From Geobacteraceae bacterium (GTDB taxonomy: Bacteria; Desulfobacterota; Desulfuromonadia; Geobacterales; DSM-12255): a stretch of 61,551 nt of DNA. A program made the translations under genes and the position numbers. This document shows positions 21,217-31,468 of this stretch, piece by piece (the stretch's first letter is position 1; each line of letters begins with the position of its first letter). Below the pieces are notes generated by a model that saw nothing but the letters and a program-made list of their open reading frames with translations, did not search any database and was not told where the DNA came from. The stretch covers positions 2,521 through 64,071 of the forward strand of contig JACABD010000016.1 in the NCBI GenBank assembly GCA_013377075.1, read 5' to 3'.

Positions 21217-21232
21217 TGTTCCACGTGGAACA
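21217..21232. promoter_or_regulatory. parS-like centromere site
   Basis: A perfect 16-bp palindrome, TGTTCCACGTGGAACA, fits the conserved ParB-binding parS core (GTTNCACGTGNAAC). It lies 4 nt past the mnmE stop and upstream of mnmG, within about 4 kb of dnaA, where chromosomal parS sites usually occur. ParB bound here would load the segregation complex near the origin. No parA or parB gene is in the window. Confidence 0.88.
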
Positions 21233-21236
21233 TTTT

Positions 21237-22607
21237 TTATTTACCTATGCAAAACTGACCGAAAATTAAATCAAGAATATCATCCGGTGTTGTTTCACCG
21301 GTAATATTGCCAAGCAAATCCAGTGAATCCCGCAAATCAATTGAAGCAAGCTCGCTCTGTGCAAGCTTGTCAGGTGAATCAGATAACAAGTTGAGTGCGG
21401 CTGAAACAGCCTTGAGAGTGTCACGATGCCTTGCCTTAGTGAGAAAAACTATATTGCGCGAATCAATCGCTTTGCCGTGAAGAAAAGTATCTGCAATTTT
21501 ACTTTTTAACTCATCAATGCCTGAACCCTTCAAAGTTGAAACAGAAACCGCCGATATTGACTGTAGCTCGTCAGGAAGATTTGAGATTCTGGGTAAATCG
21601 GACTTATTAAAAACAACAAGCATATTACGGCCTGAAATTGCTTTATATACATGCCTATCTTCGTCAGTAAACGGTGATGAAGCATCAACAACAAAAAGGA
21701 TAAGATCGACAGAAGAAATCCTCGCCAGTGCGAGATCAACCCCCAATTGCTCTACAGTGTCCTCAGAATTGCGTATACCGGCAGTATCAAGCAGTTTGAC
21801 TGGAAGCCCGTTAATATTTATGACTTCCTCTATCAAGTCTCTGGTTGTGCCAGGGATAGATGTAACTATTGCCCGTTTTTCCTTTAACAGGGTATTGAGA
21901 AGGCTTGATTTGCCAACATTTGGTTTTCCGGCAATCATAACTGAAACACCATCACGAAGGACCCTGCCCTCCTCATAGGTTGCAATAAGCGAATCTGAAA
22001 GCGATATTGCTTTTGCAAGCCTGCTAAGGATCATTTCCTGATCGTCTACGCCGATATCTTCGTCCGGAAAATCAATATAGGCTTCAACAAGGGCAAGTGA
22101 ATGACGGATATGATCTCGTAATTCCACAAGGGCAGATGAAAGAGCACCGCTTGACTGTTGCCTTGCTACATTAATCGAGGTTTCCGTCTTTCCTCTGATA
22201 AGGTCTATAACAGCTTCAGCCTGAACTAGATCTATTCTGCCATTTAGAAAAGCTCGTTTGGTAAACTCACCAGGCTCGGCCAGTCTGGCCCCCAAAAGAA
22301 TTACAATCCGGAGTATCTGCTCGACAATAAGAGTTCCACCATGACACTGAATCTCAACAACATCTTCACATGTAAAAGTTCGTGGAGCTTTCATGTAGAC
22401 GCACATGGCGTCATCTATAACTGTGAGTGAATCAGGTAAAACAACCTCACCATAATAAAAACGGTGGCTAAGAAAGCCACCGTCATTTTTACGTTTGAAT
22501 ATTTTTTTAAGGATGCAAAGTGAGTCCTGGCCACTGAGCCTGATTATGGCTATACCACCTTCACCGACAGGGGTGCTGACAGCAGCGATGGTGTCAGAAG
22601 GATACAT
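21237..22607 (-). CDS. mnmE: tRNA modification GTPase MnmE
   Basis: A 456-residue GTPase that binds the one-carbon donor and works with MnmG on tRNA U34. The tetrahydrofolate-binding N-domain (DTIAAVSTPVGEGGIAIIRLSG) is followed by the helical domain. The inserted G domain has GKPNVGKSSLLN (about residue 225), TTRDLIEE, DTAGIR and NKSD. The C-terminus ends FCIGK, the family's catalytic Cys motif. AAGGAGG lies within the end of yidC, 6 nt upstream gene to gene. No jag gene lies between yidC and mnmE. Confidence 0.96.
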   Translation of the reverse strand: MYPSDTIAAVSTPVGEGGIAIIRLSGQDSLCILKKIFKRKNDGGFLSHRFYYGEVVLPDSLTVIDDAMCVYMKAPRTFTCEDVVEIQCHGGTLIVEQILRIVILLGARLAEPGEFTKRAFLNGRIDLVQAEAVIDLIRGKTETSINVARQQSSGALSSALVELRDHIRHSLALVEAYIDFPDEDIGVDDQEMILSRLAKAISLSDSLIATYEEGRVLRDGVSVMIAGKPNVGKSSLLNTLLKEKRAIVTSIPGTTRDLIEEVININGLPVKLLDTAGIRNSEDTVEQLGVDLALARISSVDLILFVVDASSPFTDEDRHVYKAISGRNMLVVFNKSDLPRISNLPDELQSISAVSVSTLKGSGIDELKSKIADTFLHGKAIDSRNIVFLTKARHRDTLKAVSAALNLLSDSPDKLAQSELASIDLRDSLDLLGNITGETTPDDILDLIFGQFCIGK

Positions 22608-22613
22608 GGCAGA

Positions 22614-24221
22614 CTATGCCTCCTTGAGAGTTTTGTTGATGTACATCTGTTGGGCTATTGTCAGTATGTTGTTAACAAGCCAGTAAAGAACAAGACCCGA
22701 TGGAAAATTTAAGAACATTGCAGTAAATACAACAGGAAGTGCGAGCATCATTTTTGCCTGGACAGGATCCATATTGGTAGGCGTCATTTTTTGCTGGATA
22801 AACATAGTAATACCCATAATGATGGGCGTAATGTAGTAAGGGTCTCTTGAGGAAAGATCCATAATCCACAAGTAAAAAGGTGCGTGCCTAAGCTCAATGG
22901 AAAACATCAGGGCCTTGTAGAGACCGAAGAAAACCGGAATCTGCACTACCATAGGGAGACAGCCACCAAGCGGGTTAACCTTATGGGTCTTGTAAAGCTC
23001 CATGACAGACTTGTTTAATCCATCACGATCATCCTTAAATTTTTCCTTGAGCGCCTGCATCTGAGGCTGTAGCTTCTGCATCTCTTTCATTGACTTGTAG
23101 CTCTTGTGTGTCAGTGGGAAAAAGATGATCTTAAGGATTACGGTTATAGCTATAATTGCAAGACCGTAGTTATGAAGATACTTATAAAAAAGTTTAAGTG
23201 AGTGGAGAAGTGGCTTTGCAATAACAGCAAACCAGCCTAGATCGATTACCCCTTCCAGATTATGATTCTGTGCTTTAAGTACATCTATATCTTTAGGGCC
23301 AATATAGATTTCATATGGTACTGAAATTTCAGCTCCAGGATTGATGGTTATTTTTGGGGATGAAACTCTCTGCTCAATAAATCCTTCAGAAGACTTAATA
23401 TTAAGTGTTGAGATGCTCTTATCCTTAGCAATTAGTGCTGTAAGGAAATATTTATCACCGAATGCTGTCCAATTAACGGTGTTGCTAAAAGACTTTTCAG
23501 CCTTGGCGATATCATCCGGTGTGTTAAAAGTTACCCCTGATTCAGTTTTTGATGCAGCAGAAAATACTTCATAACGGCCGGCATCTTCCTTAGGTTTTGC
23601 TGAACGACTGCGTAGAACGGTCTGAATAGTGCCTTCAATTGAGGCTGCAGTGCCATTCTTAATGACATTCTCAAGAGTAATTCCGTACCCTGATCCACTG
23701 AATATATAGCGCTTGACCACCTTTGCTCCACTGCTAGTCACCGCAGAGAACTCGAGAAACTTCTTTTCATCTCCTGAAAGCACCAGCTTAGGACGATCCG
23801 GAGTAAATGTCATAGGGCCTAAGTTAAGTCCTGAGTAGTCGGTTAATAAATTATATCCCTTGGAGGCATTTTCGTTATGAAGCACAACCTGCTTAGCACC
23901 AGAGCCGACCAGATCAGTGAATTTCTTCAAGGTAACTTTTTTCAAAGCACCGCTAGTTGCGGAAAAAACAACTGAGAAATTATCAGTTTCTACTTGAACA
24001 TCAGAGTCGTTAGCGGCATTTACCGGTACTTGGTTAGCAACTTGTTGAGCTGTCAGCTCATTCGTCTTCAGCACCTTATTTGAAGCTGTTGTATCAACTT
24101 GCTGGGAGGTCTGAGCTGACTTGTTTTCAGCAGTAATCTGCTTGGCAGGAGGAAACAGGATTGAATAGCCGTACATTACAGCTATGGAGAGAACTACGGC
24201 TATTAAAACACGCTTTTCCAT
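22614..24221 (-). CDS. yidC: Membrane protein insertase YidC
   Basis: A 535-residue inner-membrane insertase. The first TM helix (about residues 5-23) is followed by a large periplasmic domain (to about 325). The conserved five-helix core follows, including LKIIFFPLTHKSYKSMKEM, LGGCLPMVVQIPVFFGLYKAL and FPSGLVLYWLVNN. This is the long Gram-negative form. GGAGC sits 6 nt before the ATG. It lies 15 nt after yidD in the origin-left operon. Confidence 0.96.
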   Translation of the reverse strand: MEKRVLIAVVLSIAVMYGYSILFPPAKQITAENKSAQTSQQVDTTASNKVLKTNELTAQQVANQVPVNAANDSDVQVETDNFSVVFSATSGALKKVTLKKFTDLVGSGAKQVVLHNENASKGYNLLTDYSGLNLGPMTFTPDRPKLVLSGDEKKFLEFSAVTSSGAKVVKRYIFSGSGYGITLENVIKNGTAASIEGTIQTVLRSRSAKPKEDAGRYEVFSAASKTESGVTFNTPDDIAKAEKSFSNTVNWTAFGDKYFLTALIAKDKSISTLNIKSSEGFIEQRVSSPKITINPGAEISVPYEIYIGPKDIDVLKAQNHNLEGVIDLGWFAVIAKPLLHSLKLFYKYLHNYGLAIIAITVILKIIFFPLTHKSYKSMKEMQKLQPQMQALKEKFKDDRDGLNKSVMELYKTHKVNPLGGCLPMVVQIPVFFGLYKALMFSIELRHAPFYLWIMDLSSRDPYYITPIIMGITMFIQQKMTPTNMDPVQAKMMLALPVVFTAMFLNFPSGLVLYWLVNNILTIAQQMYINKTLKEA

Positions 24222-24236
24222 GTAAGCTCCGAAAAT

Positions 24237-24476
24237 CTAGATAAGGGGGTCGTAACCACCTGGATGAAATGGATGACACTTGAGAATTCTTAAAGAAGAT
24301 CTTAAAGAACCTTTAATTAAACCATACTTATTTATCGCCTGGATTGAATACTCTGAGCAGGAAGGATAGAAACGACAGTTATTACCGGTGAATGGCGACA
24401 GGAAACGCTGATAGAGTCTAATCAGTGATATTGTTAAATTAGCGGTCGGAGTGCCGACCGACTCTGCTGACCCCAT
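24237..24476 (-). CDS. yidD: Membrane protein insertion efficiency factor YidD
   Basis: A 79-residue protein of the YidD family that helps YidC-dependent insertion. Family core: [27 protein letters not shown] and [14 protein letters not shown], with three conserved Cys. The ATG at 24476 is chosen because AGGAG lies 7 nt before it. The start falls within the last codons of rnpA (38-nt overlap), a common arrangement in this locus. A longer frame from 24533 has no such site. Confidence 0.92.
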
Positions 24477-24786
24477 TTGAAAGCTCCTGAAAAAGAGCAG
24501 CGTGCCCGAGAGCGGTTGCTCCGCTTCGGGCAATAATGTTGTAGTCGGCTAAAGGGAAAGAGTCTCTGTTATTACGGAAAAACTCTCTTAAAAGTCTCTT
24601 GATCCTGTTTCTATTAACGGCATTACCAACTTTTCTGCTTGCAGTAATTCCAAGACGAGAGACTGAAGTAGATGCATCATTATAAATCAAGATAAAGTTT
24701 TTTAAATAGAGCCTCTTTCCTGTCTTGGAAAGCTGAGTGAACTCTGCCCTACTTCTAATACGCCCCGATTTATCAAAGCCAGGCAT
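24439..24786 (-). CDS. rnpA: Ribonuclease P protein component
   Basis: A 115-residue basic protein subunit of RNase P, which helps the catalytic RNA trim tRNA 5' ends. The RNR motif region is [17 protein letters not shown] (about residues 54-70), with [15 protein letters not shown] before it. The start lies 14 nt after rpmH. The 3' end overlaps yidD. Confidence 0.94.
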
Positions 24787-24800
24787 GAACGAGCAAAAAC

Positions 24801-24950
24801 TTATTTTGCAGCTATAGTTACAGAAAGACGCTTTCTGCCTTTAGCTCTGCGGCGCTTTATTACAAGACGACCATTTTTTGTTGCCATACGTACCAAAAAA
24901 CCATGGGTACGTTTACGAGAGATATTACTTGGTTGAAAAGTCCGTTTCAT
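24801..24950 (-). CDS. rpmH: 50S ribosomal protein L34
   Basis: A 49-residue basic protein that I translated from the minus strand. It begins MKRTFQPSN, has [10 protein letters not shown] and [17 protein letters not shown], and ends TIAAK: a standard L34. AAGAGG lies 6 nt before the ATG at 24950. It is the first gene of the origin-left operon, divergent from dnaA. Confidence 0.97.
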
Positions 24951-24992
24951 ATATAACCTCTTAACTGTTATTTTTCTTATGCGAAATAGAAT

Positions 24993-25021
24993 TTTTAATC
25001 ATAAACACCTACTCTTGTCAA
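24993..25021 (-). promoter_or_regulatory. Possible promoter of the rpmH operon
   Basis: A perfect TTGACA (25016-25021, minus strand) is followed at 17 bp by a weak TTAAAA, about 45 nt before rpmH. The -10 match is poor, so this remains tentative. Confidence 0.4.
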
Positions 25022-25149
25022 TGTTTATTTTAAATTTCAATAGAATAAATGCCCTTGCAAATCCATTTCCTCTCTGTTAGCCTCTAAACCCTCCAAGAGG
25101 AATTAGATTAGCTAATTGCCTGTTTACTTTATGGAATTATCTTTATACC

Positions 25150-25181
25150 TTATCAACAGATGTTGATAAACCTGTTTATAA
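25150..25181. other. DnaA-box-like cluster upstream of dnaA
   Basis: Three 9-mers related to the DnaA box: TTATCAACA at 25150-25158 (plus), the same at 25161-25169 (minus), forming an inverted pair with 2 nt between, and TTATAAACA at 25173-25181 (minus). They lie 35-66 nt before dnaA, where they could serve origin function, dnaA autoregulation or both. Confidence 0.7.
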
Positions 25182-25215
25182 CTTATCTTCAGTTTGAGAT
25201 GGCGGTGTTATTTAA

Positions 25216-26562
25216 ATGAAACAAATATGGAACGATGCTCTACTAAAAATTGAGCATATAATCTCACCTCTGGCATACAACAGTTGGATTAGGCCTTTAA
25301 AATTTATTGATTCATATGGGTCTTCTTTTATAATCGAAGTTCCAAGTGAATTTCACAAAAATGAGGTTAAAAGCAGATATATTTCATTAATAAGAGAAGT
25401 TGTTTCAGGGGTAGCGAATGATACTTATGAAATAGAACTTAAAGTTGCCGAATCTTCCACTGATAACTCACCGGATTCCTACAATGAAATACAAGCATCC
25501 ACAGAAACAATTCAAAAAGAAAAAGTAATAGTGCCCAGATCACCATCATCATTAAATACCAGATATACTTTTGACTCATTTGTTTGCGGTACCAGTAACG
25601 AGTTTGCATATGCAGCATCCCAAGCTGTAGCAGAAACACCTGCAAACAGATATAATCCACTTTTCATATACGGTGGAACCGGTCTTGGTAAAACTCATCT
25701 TATGGTAGCAATAGGAAATCAGATTTTAAGTGAAAATCCTGTTGCCAAGATATGCTACTACACTTCAGAAACATTTATGAATGAAATGATAAATTGTATT
25801 CGTCACAAAAAAATGGAAGAGTTTCGTTCAAAGTTCAGAAAAGCTGATGTTTTACTAATTGATGATATACAATTTATGGCTGGGAGAGAGGCAACTGAAG
25901 TTGAGTTTTTCCACACATTTAATGCACTTTACGAATCACACAAACAGATAGTTATAACATCTGATAAATTCCCTAAAGAAATACCTGGACTGGAAGAAAG
26001 ACTGAGATCTAGATTTGAGTGGGGATTGATTGCAGATATTCAACCACCTGATGTGGAAACAAAAGTAGCAATACTTAAAAAGAAGGCAGAAGTTAATAAA
26101 ATAGACCTGCCTGACGACGTAGCCTTTCTAATTGGTTCAAGTAATGCAAGTAATATTCGTGAAATTGAAGGGATGTTAATACGCATAGGTGCATATGCGA
26201 GTCTCACAAAAAACAAAATCAACCTTCTAATGGCAAAAGACATACTAAAAGACATAATCGTTGATAAGAACCGTGAAATAAGTATTGAATCAATACAAAA
26301 ACATGTTGCCGACCATTTTAAGCTGAAAGTAGCTGACCTTAAATCTGAAAAAAGACTTAAATCATTCGTGATACCTAGACAGATTGCCATTTACCTATCA
26401 AGAGAACTTACCAAAGCATCATTCCCGGAAATTGGTGAAAAGTTTGGTGGTAAAGATCACTCTACTGTTATTTACGCAGTAAATAAAATAAATGCGGTAA
26501 TGAAAGATAAACCAGAAATTTTGGACAGTTATGAAACCATAAAAAGAAAGCTGTTGAACTAA
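25216..26562 (+). CDS. dnaA: Chromosomal replication initiator DnaA
   Basis: A 448-residue initiator that binds origin boxes and, with ATP, melts the origin. Domain I starts IWNDALLKIEHIISPLAYNSWI; a variable linker follows; the AAA+ domain has YGGTGLGKTHL (about residues 152-162) and LLIDDIQFMAGRE; domain IV ends with GGKDHSTVIYAVNKI, the box-reading signature. No strong ribosome site is at normal distance (GGCGG is about 11 nt away), which may keep expression low. Box-like sites flank the gene on both sides. The coding sequence is clearly AT-rich. Confidence 0.98.
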   Translation: MKQIWNDALLKIEHIISPLAYNSWIRPLKFIDSYGSSFIIEVPSEFHKNEVKSRYISLIREVVSGVANDTYEIELKVAESSTDNSPDSYNEIQASTETIQKEKVIVPRSPSSLNTRYTFDSFVCGTSNEFAYAASQAVAETPANRYNPLFIYGGTGLGKTHLMVAIGNQILSENPVAKICYYTSETFMNEMINCIRHKKMEEFRSKFRKADVLLIDDIQFMAGREATEVEFFHTFNALYESHKQIVITSDKFPKEIPGLEERLRSRFEWGLIADIQPPDVETKVAILKKKAEVNKIDLPDDVAFLIGSSNASNIREIEGMLIRIGAYASLTKNKINLLMAKDILKDIIVDKNREISIESIQKHVADHFKLKVADLKSEKRLKSFVIPRQIAIYLSRELTKASFPEIGEKFGGKDHSTVIYAVNKINAVMKDKPEILDSYETIKRKLLN

Positions 26563-26780
26563 TGATGAAAAACATGTTGATAACCTGCTTAGTATGTTTA
26601 TAAGTAATTAAGGCTGTGTATAAATAAAGTTATAAACAAAATATTTAACAGATTTACTAACAGATAAAAGATAATTATTTCAGTTATTTATATATTATAT
26701 GGTCTTATCAACAACAACTATTACTACTTCTACTATTCTTTTAGTTATATAAATAAACAGTAAATAGGTTTGGAGGAACA
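26563..26780. other. Candidate oriC (dnaA-dnaN gap)
   Basis: This very AT-rich 218-nt gap holds five DnaA-box-like 9-mers: 26575-26583 (minus), 26595-26603 (minus), 26615-26623 (minus, TTATACACA), 26630-26638 (plus) and 26705-26713 (plus). A trinucleotide tract and a further AT-rich run come before dnaN. Together these are the parts expected of a bacterial origin: initiator sites, an unwinding start signal and a duplex that opens easily. Confidence 0.85.
26705..26738. other. DnaA box plus DnaA-trio-like tract
   Basis: TTATCAACA is followed 4 nt later by CTA-TTA-CTA-CTT-CTA-CTA-TTC (26718-26738). Its complement read 3' to 5' is GAT-AAT-GAT-GAA-GAT-GAT-AAG, five of seven units fitting the (G/A)AT DnaA-trio repeat described for Bacillus-type origins. 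An AT-rich stretch follows. This would be where DnaA loads on single strand and opens the origin. Confidence 0.7.
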
Positions 26781-27899
26781 ATGGAATTTACAATTGAGAA
26801 AGAGACATTTGTAAAGGCACTACAAAAGATCCAGGGAATTGTTGAACGACGTAATACAATGCCAATTCTTTCAAATGTTCTTATAGAAGCATCTGATAAT
26901 AATCTTACTTTTACAGCAACAGACCTGGAAGTAGGCATGAAAAGCAGTTATAAGGCCAAAGTCTTAGAAGAGGGGCGTATAACACTCTCTGCAAAGAAAC
27001 TTTATGAAATAATCAGAGAATTACCGGATGAACAGGTAAAACTTACTACTAAAGGTAATGACTGGGTCGATATAACATGTGGTAAGGCAAAATTCAGTAT
27101 CGTCGGTCTTTCACCAGATGAATTTCCTTTTTTTCCTAAAATAAATGAAACTGGATTTGTGACTCTTGATTCTTCTACTCTTGCCAGAATGATAGAGCAA
27201 ACTTCTTATGCAATCTGCCATGATGAAACTAAATATAATCTTAACGGCATCCTCTTTAAAATCTCAAATAAGGAAGATGGAAAAACTTTAGTTATGGTTG
27301 CTACAGACGGTCACAGACTTTCTGTATCGGAACATAAAGTGGAAGGAGCTGATTTCGATATTCAGGAGAAAGGTGTAATCTTTCCTAAAAAAGGAATTAT
27401 TGAGCTTAAGAAGCTTTGTGATGAAGAAGAGAGTGGTATAAGGCTCGGTTTTGTAGAAAACAGCATAGCGGTTATAAAAAATGATACGACAGTCGTTATG
27501 AGATTGGTAGATGGTGAATTTCCTGACTATACCAGAGTTGTTCCGGTCGGTAACAATAAGGAAATTACAATAAAGAAAGATATTTTTCTCCATTCTTTGA
27601 AAAGAATGGCGATTCTTTCAAGCGAAAAATTTAAAGGCATCAAGTTTGAAATAGCGAATAATTCAATTGTAATATCTTCGAGTAATCCTGAACTTGGAGA
27701 GGCTAGAGAAGAACTTGATGCTAAATACAGTGGCGAAAATATGGTTACCAGATTCAATGCACGTTATCTGATTGATGTACTTAATATCATAACAGAAGAA
27801 GAAGTTGTACTGCTTCTAAGAGATGAAATGTCACCTGCAATTCTAAAAAAAGCAGGAACAGATGAGTTAATGGCTGTCATCATGCCAATGCGGCTTTAA
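26781..27899 (+). CDS. dnaN: DNA polymerase III sliding clamp (beta subunit)
   Basis: A 372-residue clamp that forms a ring on DNA and tethers polymerases. It shows the three-fold repeat of the family. It starts MEFTIEKETFVKALQKIQGIVERRNTMP-like (Met-1 confirmed by GGAGG 5 nt upstream), has VATDGHRLS near residue 175 and ends AVIMPMRL, the usual C-terminus that lines the client pocket. It lies right after the candidate oriC and before recF, with a hairpin in the gap. Confidence 0.97.
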   Translation: MEFTIEKETFVKALQKIQGIVERRNTMPILSNVLIEASDNNLTFTATDLEVGMKSSYKAKVLEEGRITLSAKKLYEIIRELPDEQVKLTTKGNDWVDITCGKAKFSIVGLSPDEFPFFPKINETGFVTLDSSTLARMIEQTSYAICHDETKYNLNGILFKISNKEDGKTLVMVATDGHRLSVSEHKVEGADFDIQEKGVIFPKKGIIELKKLCDEEESGIRLGFVENSIAVIKNDTTVVMRLVDGEFPDYTRVVPVGNNKEITIKKDIFLHSLKRMAILSSEKFKGIKFEIANNSIVISSSNPELGEAREELDAKYSGENMVTRFNARYLIDVLNIITEEEVVLLLRDEMSPAILKKAGTDELMAVIMPMRL

Positions 27900-27934
27900 T
27901 ATTTACACACAACCATTTAATCACAAAACCAGTG

Positions 27935-27970
27935 AAGGTCTCTCTGTATTAATTCAATCAGAGAGACCTT
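27935..27970 (+). terminator. Hairpin between dnaN and recF
   Basis: A perfect 12-bp stem (AAGGTCTCTCTG and CAGAGAGACCTT) with a 12-nt loop, followed by a mixed T-rich run. It could partly end the dnaN transcript and lower recF expression. It ends 15 nt before the recF start. Confidence 0.6.
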
Positions 27971-27985
27971 TCGTGTTATTTAGAT

Positions 27986-29077
27986 ATGCTTCTAAAAAAA
28001 CTTACAATTAACAAATTTAGAAATATTGAAAGATCTGTTGTCGAATTTGACCGCAAATTCAATATTTTTTATGGACAGAACGGACAGGGTAAAACTAACT
28101 TCCTGGAATCCATATTTTTTCTTGCGACACTGAAATCATTCAGAAATTCTAAACAGAAAGAGATGCTTAAGTGGAATGAAAATAGTTGTTTGCTAAACTG
28201 TACGATTCATGATGGAAATATCGGGCATGAACTTTCAGTTTTATTTGAAAACAATACAAAACAGCTGAAAATAGACGATAAATCCGCATCAAGAATCATA
28301 GATTACTGTAAAACCTTTACTGTAGTGGCTTTTTGCCCTGAAGAGCTGATAATGATTAATGGCGCTCCTGATCAAAGAAGACGTTATCTTGACAGGGCTG
28401 TATTCAGCAGCCAGCCTGAATATCTTAAGACGTATCATGATTATTACAGGATTTTGAAACAGAGAAATCATCTATTAAAACAAAGAAGTTATATCGATTT
28501 AGATGCCTGGACAGAGCAGTTGGCAAAAAGTGGTGCCAAACTGATATTTGAAAGATCAAATTATTTAGCAAAGCTGTCTGAAGGTTTTGCCAGCTTTTAC
28601 AAAAACATCTCTGGTAGTGACGAAGAGGCAGGTTTGTGTTATCATAACTCCTCTTATAGAGACAGCTTTGCGCAGAATGAGATACAAGCTCAATTACTCG
28701 GTGAAATAGCCCTATCCTGCCGGATTGAAAAAGAGCGTGGAACAACCGTAGTAGGCCCTCACAGAGATGATATCGAGTTTTACCTTAACAAAAGACTAAT
28801 TCGAGAACATGGTTCACAGGGACAGCAGAAAAGCTTTGTCATGGCTTTAAAAATGGCAGAAATCGATTACTTGGGCAATATGTCAGGAAATGTTCCGGTA
28901 CTTCTTCTTGACGACATGACTGCGGAACTTGACAGCAGCAGGATCGATCACCTTATGAACTTTCTGGTTCAAAGAGATATGCAGGTTTTTATTACAACCA
29001 CAGACAAGGATTCAGTACCCCTTCCTAAAGGAAGAGAGTGCTCGACTTTTCTTGTTGAAAATGGTCGGATTGTTTAG
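27986..29077 (+). CDS. recF: DNA replication and repair protein RecF
   Basis: A 363-residue SMC-like ATPase that helps load RecA at gapped DNA. Walker A is GQNGQGKTNFLESI (about residues 31-44), the ABC signature HGSQGQQKSFVMALKMAE, and Walker B VLLLDDMTAELD. There is no clear ribosome site before the ATG, and a hairpin ends 15 nt upstream, both suggesting weak translation. The gene is AT-rich like dnaA and dnaN. gyrB follows after 12 nt. Confidence 0.95.
   Translation: MLLKKLTINKFRNIERSVVEFDRKFNIFYGQNGQGKTNFLESIFFLATLKSFRNSKQKEMLKWNENSCLLNCTIHDGNIGHELSVLFENNTKQLKIDDKSASRIIDYCKTFTVVAFCPEELIMINGAPDQRRRYLDRAVFSSQPEYLKTYHDYYRILKQRNHLLKQRSYIDLDAWTEQLAKSGAKLIFERSNYLAKLSEGFASFYKNISGSDEEAGLCYHNSSYRDSFAQNEIQAQLLGEIALSCRIEKERGTTVVGPHRDDIEFYLNKRLIREHGSQGQQKSFVMALKMAEIDYLGNMSGNVPVLLLDDMTAELDSSRIDHLMNFLVQRDMQVFITTTDKDSVPLPKGRECSTFLVENGRIV

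Positions 29078-31468
<2,391 letters not shown>

Follow-up and report, generated by a model that had tools for sequence, protein, structure and literature searches.

The question raised by this locus is whether the short gap between dnaA and dnaN is the place at which the chromosome is opened for replication, and whether the DNA there belongs to a known kind of opening element. An earlier note, made from the letters of the window (the whole stretch of DNA analysed here, 61,551 nucleotides), had named the gap a candidate oriC carrying a DnaA-trio. We put at about 90% the probability that the element beside dnaN is the unwinding module of a bipartite chromosome origin flanking dnaA. Judged by its sequence, this origin is a normal, well-conserved new case of the published basal unwinding system (BUS) and not a new type. 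The genes are arranged divergently around the locus, with rpmH (TIGR01030), rnpA, yidC, mnmE and mnmG running leftward and dnaA-dnaN-recF-gyrB-gyrA rightward; the features discussed below are collected in Table 1.

Table 1. Positions in the window of the genes, DnaA boxes and unwinding element around dnaA
Feature	Positions	Strand	Remarks
Upstream DnaA box TTATCAACA	25150..25158	+	rpmH-dnaA gap
Upstream DnaA box, inverted partner of TTATCAACA	25161..25169	-	
Upstream DnaA box TTATAAACA	25173..25181	-	
dnaA	25216..26562	+	448 aa; TIGR00362, 563.9 bits; aligned to 8btg (B. subtilis DnaA)
dnaA-dnaN gap, candidate oriC	26563..26780		218 bp
DnaA box TTATCAACA	26575..26583	-	1 mismatch
DnaA box TTATAAACA	26595..26603	-	2 mismatches
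DnaA box TTATACACA	26615..26623	-	1 mismatch
DnaA box TTATAAACA	26630..26638	+	2 mismatches
BUS anchor box TTATCAACA	26705..26713	+	1 mismatch; aligned block in relatives
Spacer ACAA	26714..26717		4 nt; relatives often GGCA/GGAC-like
DnaA-trio tract	26718..26738		plus strand CTA TTA CTA CTT CTA CTA TTC; presumed bound strand is minus
AT-rich run adjoining triplets	26739..26772		presumed, from sequence, to melt with triplets
dnaN	26781..27899	+	TIGR00663, 342.9 bits

When a DnaA box is taken as a match to TTATCCACA with at most two mismatches, the gap holds exactly five, the number first reported for it. The sequence of features described at its right-hand end, in which seven triplets come 4 nt beyond the last box and an AT-rich run adjoins them, was likewise found as described, at 26705-26772. 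The minus strand of the tract reads 3'-GAT AAT GAT GAA GAT GAT AAG-5', with GAT or AAT in five of the seven triplets, in agreement with the count given earlier for the (G/A)AT rule, and with a central A on this presumed bound strand in all seven. The marks of a BUS (a box with no more than two mismatches, a spacer of 0-16 bp and at least three 3'-NAN-5' triplets) are thus all present, the spacer here being 4 bp. Among 5,000 dinucleotide-shuffled versions of the gap, searched on both strands with the same box threshold and spacer range, one had an unbroken run of at least five GAT/AAT triplets. A weak "BUS", meaning three NAN triplets in a row close to a box, arose in 42% of the shuffles; the length of the run and the identity of its triplets therefore carry the signal, the mere presence of a run does not, and the notion that any box with a NAN run counts as evidence was discarded. 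On both strands of the 61.5-kb window, no second site was found that combines a box with at least five NAN triplets of which at least four are GAT/AAT, and the string made up of box and tract occurs once in the window's own genome.

The initiator encoded next to this tract has the residues expected of one that reads it. Asn189 of the window's DnaA is the equivalent of B. subtilis Asn187 in the alignment to 8btg, and the trio-binding residues 183, 187, 190, 193, 202 and 228 (in B. subtilis numbering, used from here on) are identical in the two proteins, as is residue 223; positions 196 (Lys in the window) and 222 (Arg) differ. In the cryo-EM structure reported in PMC10721633, two bases of each triplet are captured and the amino group of the central adenine contacts Asn187; according to the same report, the B. 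subtilis origin is impaired more by an A-to-T change in trios 1-3 than by an A-to-C change. The Asn at position 187, together with the other B. subtilis-like trio residues, is what makes the window look like a normal BUS case.

Comparison with the systems already described points the same way. With the B. subtilis BUS, as presented in PMC8287927 and PMC10721633, the window shares the box, the short spacer, the 3'-GAT/AAT-5' triplets on the strand opposite TTATCCACA, the Asn at 187 and even an AAG triplet at position 4; it differs in having one strong box in place of a tandem pair, and a spacer, ACAA, that is not GC-rich. TAG-type triplets outside Firmicutes are also described for the eTrio of Thermotoga maritima and the oriC2 trio of Helicobacter pylori (PMC10316083, PMC8235120). 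The H. pylori origin is bipartite as well according to these two reports, whereas T. maritima differs from the window in its box sequence and in having essential TAG repeats beyond the annotated trio next to box 1. The ssDUE motifs of E. coli, as given in PMC5742627, lie in the 13-mers with no regular triplet array beside a box, and the window is not of this type. The proposal of a candidate oriC with a DnaA-trio accordingly holds as to box, spacer, triplets, DnaA residues and relatives, but the novelty that had been claimed for it, an extension of the element beyond Firmicutes, falls away, since PMC8287927 (Pelliciari et al. 2021) already predicts a BUS in 1,755 of 2,070 species across bacterial phyla. 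That report also describes activity for Gram-negative DnaAs, and demonstrates the BUS in vitro for species that include H. pylori, Synechococcus and Deinococcus.

The element recurs in relatives. A search of 58 genomes, that of the window among them, located dnaN in 56, and the gap measures 205-251 bp in 53 of the 55 extracted (again counting the window), the other two being 537 and 431 bp long. In an alignment of Geobacterales gaps, which the earlier note had suggested as a check, the boxes on the left are in reverse and those on the right in forward orientation, the triplets come directly after the last box, and the tract recurs with near-constant spacing; many relatives have two adjoining boxes beside the tract where the window has one good box. 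For a wider comparison 246 loci were processed, with L001 set aside; three lacked the dnaA end and seven a readable motif, and the resulting 236 reduced to 155 distinct gaps, of which 88 go with Asn at residue 187, 55 with Tyr and 12 with His. With the box placed by the alignment anchor and the spacer length chosen by best fit to Y[AT]A, the spacer is 4-6 nt in all 88 Asn rows (4, 5 and 6 nt in 45, 25 and 18, respectively). In many members the register slips by 1 nt after triplet one or two (CTA-T-CTACTACTA), which breaks strict triplet runs.

A second group of boxes recurs on the other side of dnaA, in the rpmH-dnaA gap. At least two boxes lie within 300 nt upstream of dnaA in 65 of the 71 Asn rows and all 54 of the Tyr/His rows that reach far enough, against a shuffled mean of 0.26, and the same inverted pair at the same distance from dnaA is present in 23 of 25 Asn rows among those listed. 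From its sequence and recurrence, this cluster (25150-25181) may be either the other half of a bipartite origin or a site of dnaA autoregulation. The cumulative G-C minimum, computed over the 61.5-kb window alone from an assembly of 126 contigs, falls at 22565; this is about 4.1 kb to the left of the triplets, within a shallow plateau extending from 22 to 26.7 kb. At 21217-21232, about 5 kb from the triplets, there is a parS-like palindrome, TGTTCCACGTGGAACA, with two mismatches to the consensus; 0.31 chance matches are expected in such a scan at up to three mismatches. The skew plateau, the gene layout, the upstream boxes and the parS-like site fit an origin near dnaA without fixing the base at which replication starts. 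The region from 24000 to 30000, around dnaA-dnaN-recF, is also a low-GC island, at 33-41% GC in 2-kb steps compared with roughly 42-57% in the remainder of the window.

These same observations lend something to a different account, in which the tract is merely AT-rich DNA in the promoter region of dnaN, its triplets owed to chance or to promoter constraint, and the real DUE lies elsewhere, for instance in the rpmH-dnaA gap. Origins are AT-rich, the gap must hold the expression signals of dnaN in any case, and both the recurrent second cluster and the skew minimum lie on the upstream side. That account nevertheless seems to us very unlikely, given that triplets next to the box are a recurrent feature of the class, with no such enrichment in the remainder of the gap, and that no tract with four of five YTA or YAA triplets beside a box was seen elsewhere in the 155 loci scanned.

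If the element is indeed the unwinding module of the origin, events can be pictured by analogy with the B. subtilis system. DnaA-ATP would bind the box at 26705-26713 as double-stranded DNA, and from this platform more DnaA would be added towards the right along the minus strand of 26718-26738, with the first two bases of every triplet captured by a pair of DnaA molecules. Such capture would open the AT-rich DNA beside dnaN for helicase loading, while the three leftward boxes and the cluster upstream of dnaA might help to load DnaA and to regulate dnaA.

Of more general interest is a sister family, which we label f4, in which the initiator and the tract differ together from those of the window. 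It includes Oryzomonas japonica, Pelotalea chapellei and Trichlorobacter thiogenes; NCBI places Oryzomonas and Trichlorobacter in Geobacteraceae, order Geobacterales, and dnaN was found in 70 of the 76 f4 genomes searched. Residue 187 is Tyr or His in all f4 rows except one. Conversely, 65 of the 67 Tyr/His rows belong to f4, the other two (L191 and L206) having no family code and L206 falling within the f4 clade of a DnaN tree; the 88 Asn rows comprise one from f4, 75 from other coded families and 12 without a code. The contigs of L206 and L191, labelled Chitinophagaceae and Desulfobacteraceae, carry a Tyr-type Geobacterales origin and are probably mis-binned or mis-named MAGs.

In f4 the box, the spacer and the triplet rhythm are kept (the last three letters of the anchor box are ACA in 85/88 rows with Asn, 47/55 with Tyr and 12/12 with His), and the triplets tend to be CAA/TAA instead of CTA/TTA. 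The central base of the second triplet, read on the plus strand, is T in 82 of the 88 Asn rows and A in 51 of 55 Tyr and 10 of 12 His rows. Tyr tracts often take the form CWA-CAA-nnnn-CWA-CAA-GG or are perfect repeats such as (CAA)5 in L101, and (TAA)n makes up several of the His tracts. YTA fills at least four of five in-register triplet positions beside the box in 29/88 Asn and 0/67 Tyr/His rows, and YAA does so in 0/88 and 11/67; no site of either kind beside a box was found in 399 kb upstream of the gaps. With the threshold lowered to at least three of five, the figures become 64/88 and 2/67 for YTA, and 1/88 and 21/67 for YAA, with six YTA and seven YAA chance sites upstream of the gaps. 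Of five other units counted at the stricter threshold, four gave 0 or 1 gap per group; the fifth, the reversed unit AAY, overlaps with YAA repeats and was seen in 0/88 Asn, 2/55 Tyr and 3/12 His.

The difference lies in the tract, where the densities of YTA and YAA per 100 nt are 16.3 and 3.5 in Asn rows, 6.9 and 11.7 in Tyr rows, and 5.9 and 11.7 in His rows; the corresponding values in the rest of the gap are 2.9 and 5.9, 4.0 and 5.3, and 3.3 and 6.3. A general shift of base composition in f4 is not supported as the cause, the rest of the gap having no matching difference; relocation of the trio was rejected, no four-of-five YTA tract beside a box having been found in the 67 Tyr/His loci scanned. 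Counted free of register, the mean number of T in the 15-nt tract is 5.94 with Asn, 2.55 with Tyr and 5.08 with His, which indicates that adenines on the bound strand have been lost with Tyr and leaves His ambiguous. In keeping with this, a run of at least three NAN triplets, sought with its start 0-7 nt beyond the aligned box and lying within 25 nt (the published program is more permissive, accepting further boxes and spacers up to 16), was found in 1/55 Tyr tracts, 7/12 His tracts and, slips and all, 49/88 Asn tracts, so that by this count the Tyr tracts lie outside the central-adenine definition of a BUS. With a 3-nt spacer, the (TAA)n tracts of the His rows also allow the reading 3'-TAT-5', in which the central A is kept. 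Nor are the Tyr tracts uniform: CTA is retained as the first triplet in 23 of 55, and YTA outnumbers YAA in 10 and equals it in six. His and Tyr have been exchanged within f4 without a change of tract (L105, L096), which rules out the choice between these two residues as the cause of TAA versus CAA.

It could be argued that the f4 initiator has simply turned to the plus strand, on which CAA repeats read 3'-AAC-5' and the central adenine would be kept. The plus strand of a CAA repeat does present 3'-NAN-5' in one register, and AAY units at three of five occur in 11/55 Tyr and 5/12 His gaps, with a further 19 such sites upstream of the gaps. Such a change would need the opposite polarity relative to a box and spacer that have not moved; according to PMC5742627 only a specific strand is bound in B. 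subtilis and in E. coli, and the T-rich strand bound in E. coli, like the presumed bound strand here, lies opposite the TTATCCACA strand, that of R1. We regard a change of strand as improbable.

In the order, then, this looks like co-variation between the base-reading residue of the initiator and the triplet of the origin, as far as sequences can tell. A paired change, from Asn with 3'-RAT-5' to Tyr with 3'-RTT-5', is what would be expected if residue 187 reads the central base. Somewhat short of an even chance, in our estimate, is the full form of this idea, a DnaA-origin triplet code read by residue 187, in which Asn would specify A (3'-RAT-5'), the Tyr and perhaps the His of f4 would specify T (3'-RTT-5', that is, 5'-TTG/TTA repeats), one lineage of the Tyr clade would have switched back in both partners, and the TTGT/TTATT motifs of E. 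coli, whose DnaA has Gln and not Asn at this position, would be a decayed form.

The lineage in question is L048 (f4 genome G038, a single MAG; the same gap appears as L188, record DUZX01000018), which has Asn at 187. Its tract, GTAC CTA CTA T CTA CTA CTT, contains five YTA and no YAA, while none of the 67 Tyr/His tracts is without YAA and the highest excess of YTA over YAA among them is 2, compared with 5 in L048. In the DnaN tree (quick method, 94 rows), which is independent of the residue, L048 groups with 26 Tyr rows in a clade of 27 that has support.

Against a code stands the possibility that Tyr/His and CAA/TAA are two unrelated markers of the f4 clade and that the residue does not read the triplet, an explanation to which we give a real but clearly smaller than even chance. 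Clade and residue are confounded, with 28 DnaA columns separating the Asn and sister-family groups; near the pocket, residue 190 has gone from Ile to Val throughout the Tyr/His rows, likewise in L048, and residue 223 from Glu to Thr or Val in 53/55 Tyr rows, with Glu in 11/12 His and 77/88 Asn rows. In a DnaA tree built with the motif masked, Asn and non-Asn differ in only two independent pairs, so that a sign test cannot reach significance; the tract agrees in a mean of 1.8 of the two, although 200 random pairings included two with one pair running the opposite way. The points against unrelated markers are that at the 28 separating columns L048 has the f4 state in 23, another residue in four and the Asn-group state in one, residue 187, which has returned together with the tract, and that residue 187 contacts that very base in the B. 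subtilis structure (PMC10721633). With so many columns separating the groups, it is the reversion and this structure, and not the comparison by itself, that single out residue 187.

Further from the order the pairing loosens, and this too favors unrelated markers. Among 60 phylum-level regions, 29 had no DnaA that passed the filter and 31 were aligned; the tract locator performs poorly there and the residue column alone was used. The 31 aligned proteins have 27 Asn, two Ser, one Asp and one misaligned position (L266); among the 29 filtered out, the residue, read separately, is Asn in L255, L278, L286 and L289 and Leu in L281. Ser (L308), Asp (L271) and Leu (L281) at 187 occur with TTA triplets, which shows that loss of Asn alone does not force a change of tract and disposes of the idea that every non-Asn residue goes with YAA. 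L281 and L308, the tracts of which are TTA-rich, and L291 come from other families of the phylum and have a divergent DnaA motif with Leu or Ser at 187; no clear tract was found beside L291 (Ser).

The bearing of a triplet code on E. coli deserves mention. There the T-rich strand needs TTGT and TTATT (PMC5742627), and the f4 CAA/TAA tracts amount to 5'-TTG/TTA repeats opposite TTATCMACA, like that T-rich strand, a resemblance short of demonstrated homology; putative trio-like triplets are also described for E. coli in PMC13220808. PMC10316083, PMC8235120 and PMC5742627 leave undecided how DnaA recognizes single strands and why the motifs of E. coli are unlike those of B. subtilis; a triplet code, if true, would join two models of origin opening now described as different. 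A natural switch between Asn and Tyr with a matching switch of triplet, reversed once, makes the recognition question one that a swap of a single residue can address; the sister family with its co-variation is thus the part most worth testing and may outweigh the window element, itself a clear BUS. In the literature covered on the DnaA-trio, Asn187 and origin-initiator coevolution, a coverage that largely omits subscription journals, the co-variation was not found among the titles and abstract openings listed and may be in print elsewhere; for chromosome origins of the Geobacter/Pelobacter group the same coverage listed no study, two of its papers naming only a plasmid origin and predicted DnaA boxes.

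Two smaller features of these genomes may be added. Directly after the triplets, many of the Tyr rows and some with His (L032-L114) have a block resembling AAGGTTTTAAA, and G013, G032, G046 and G122 encode a second, distant DnaN-like protein (25-31% identity).
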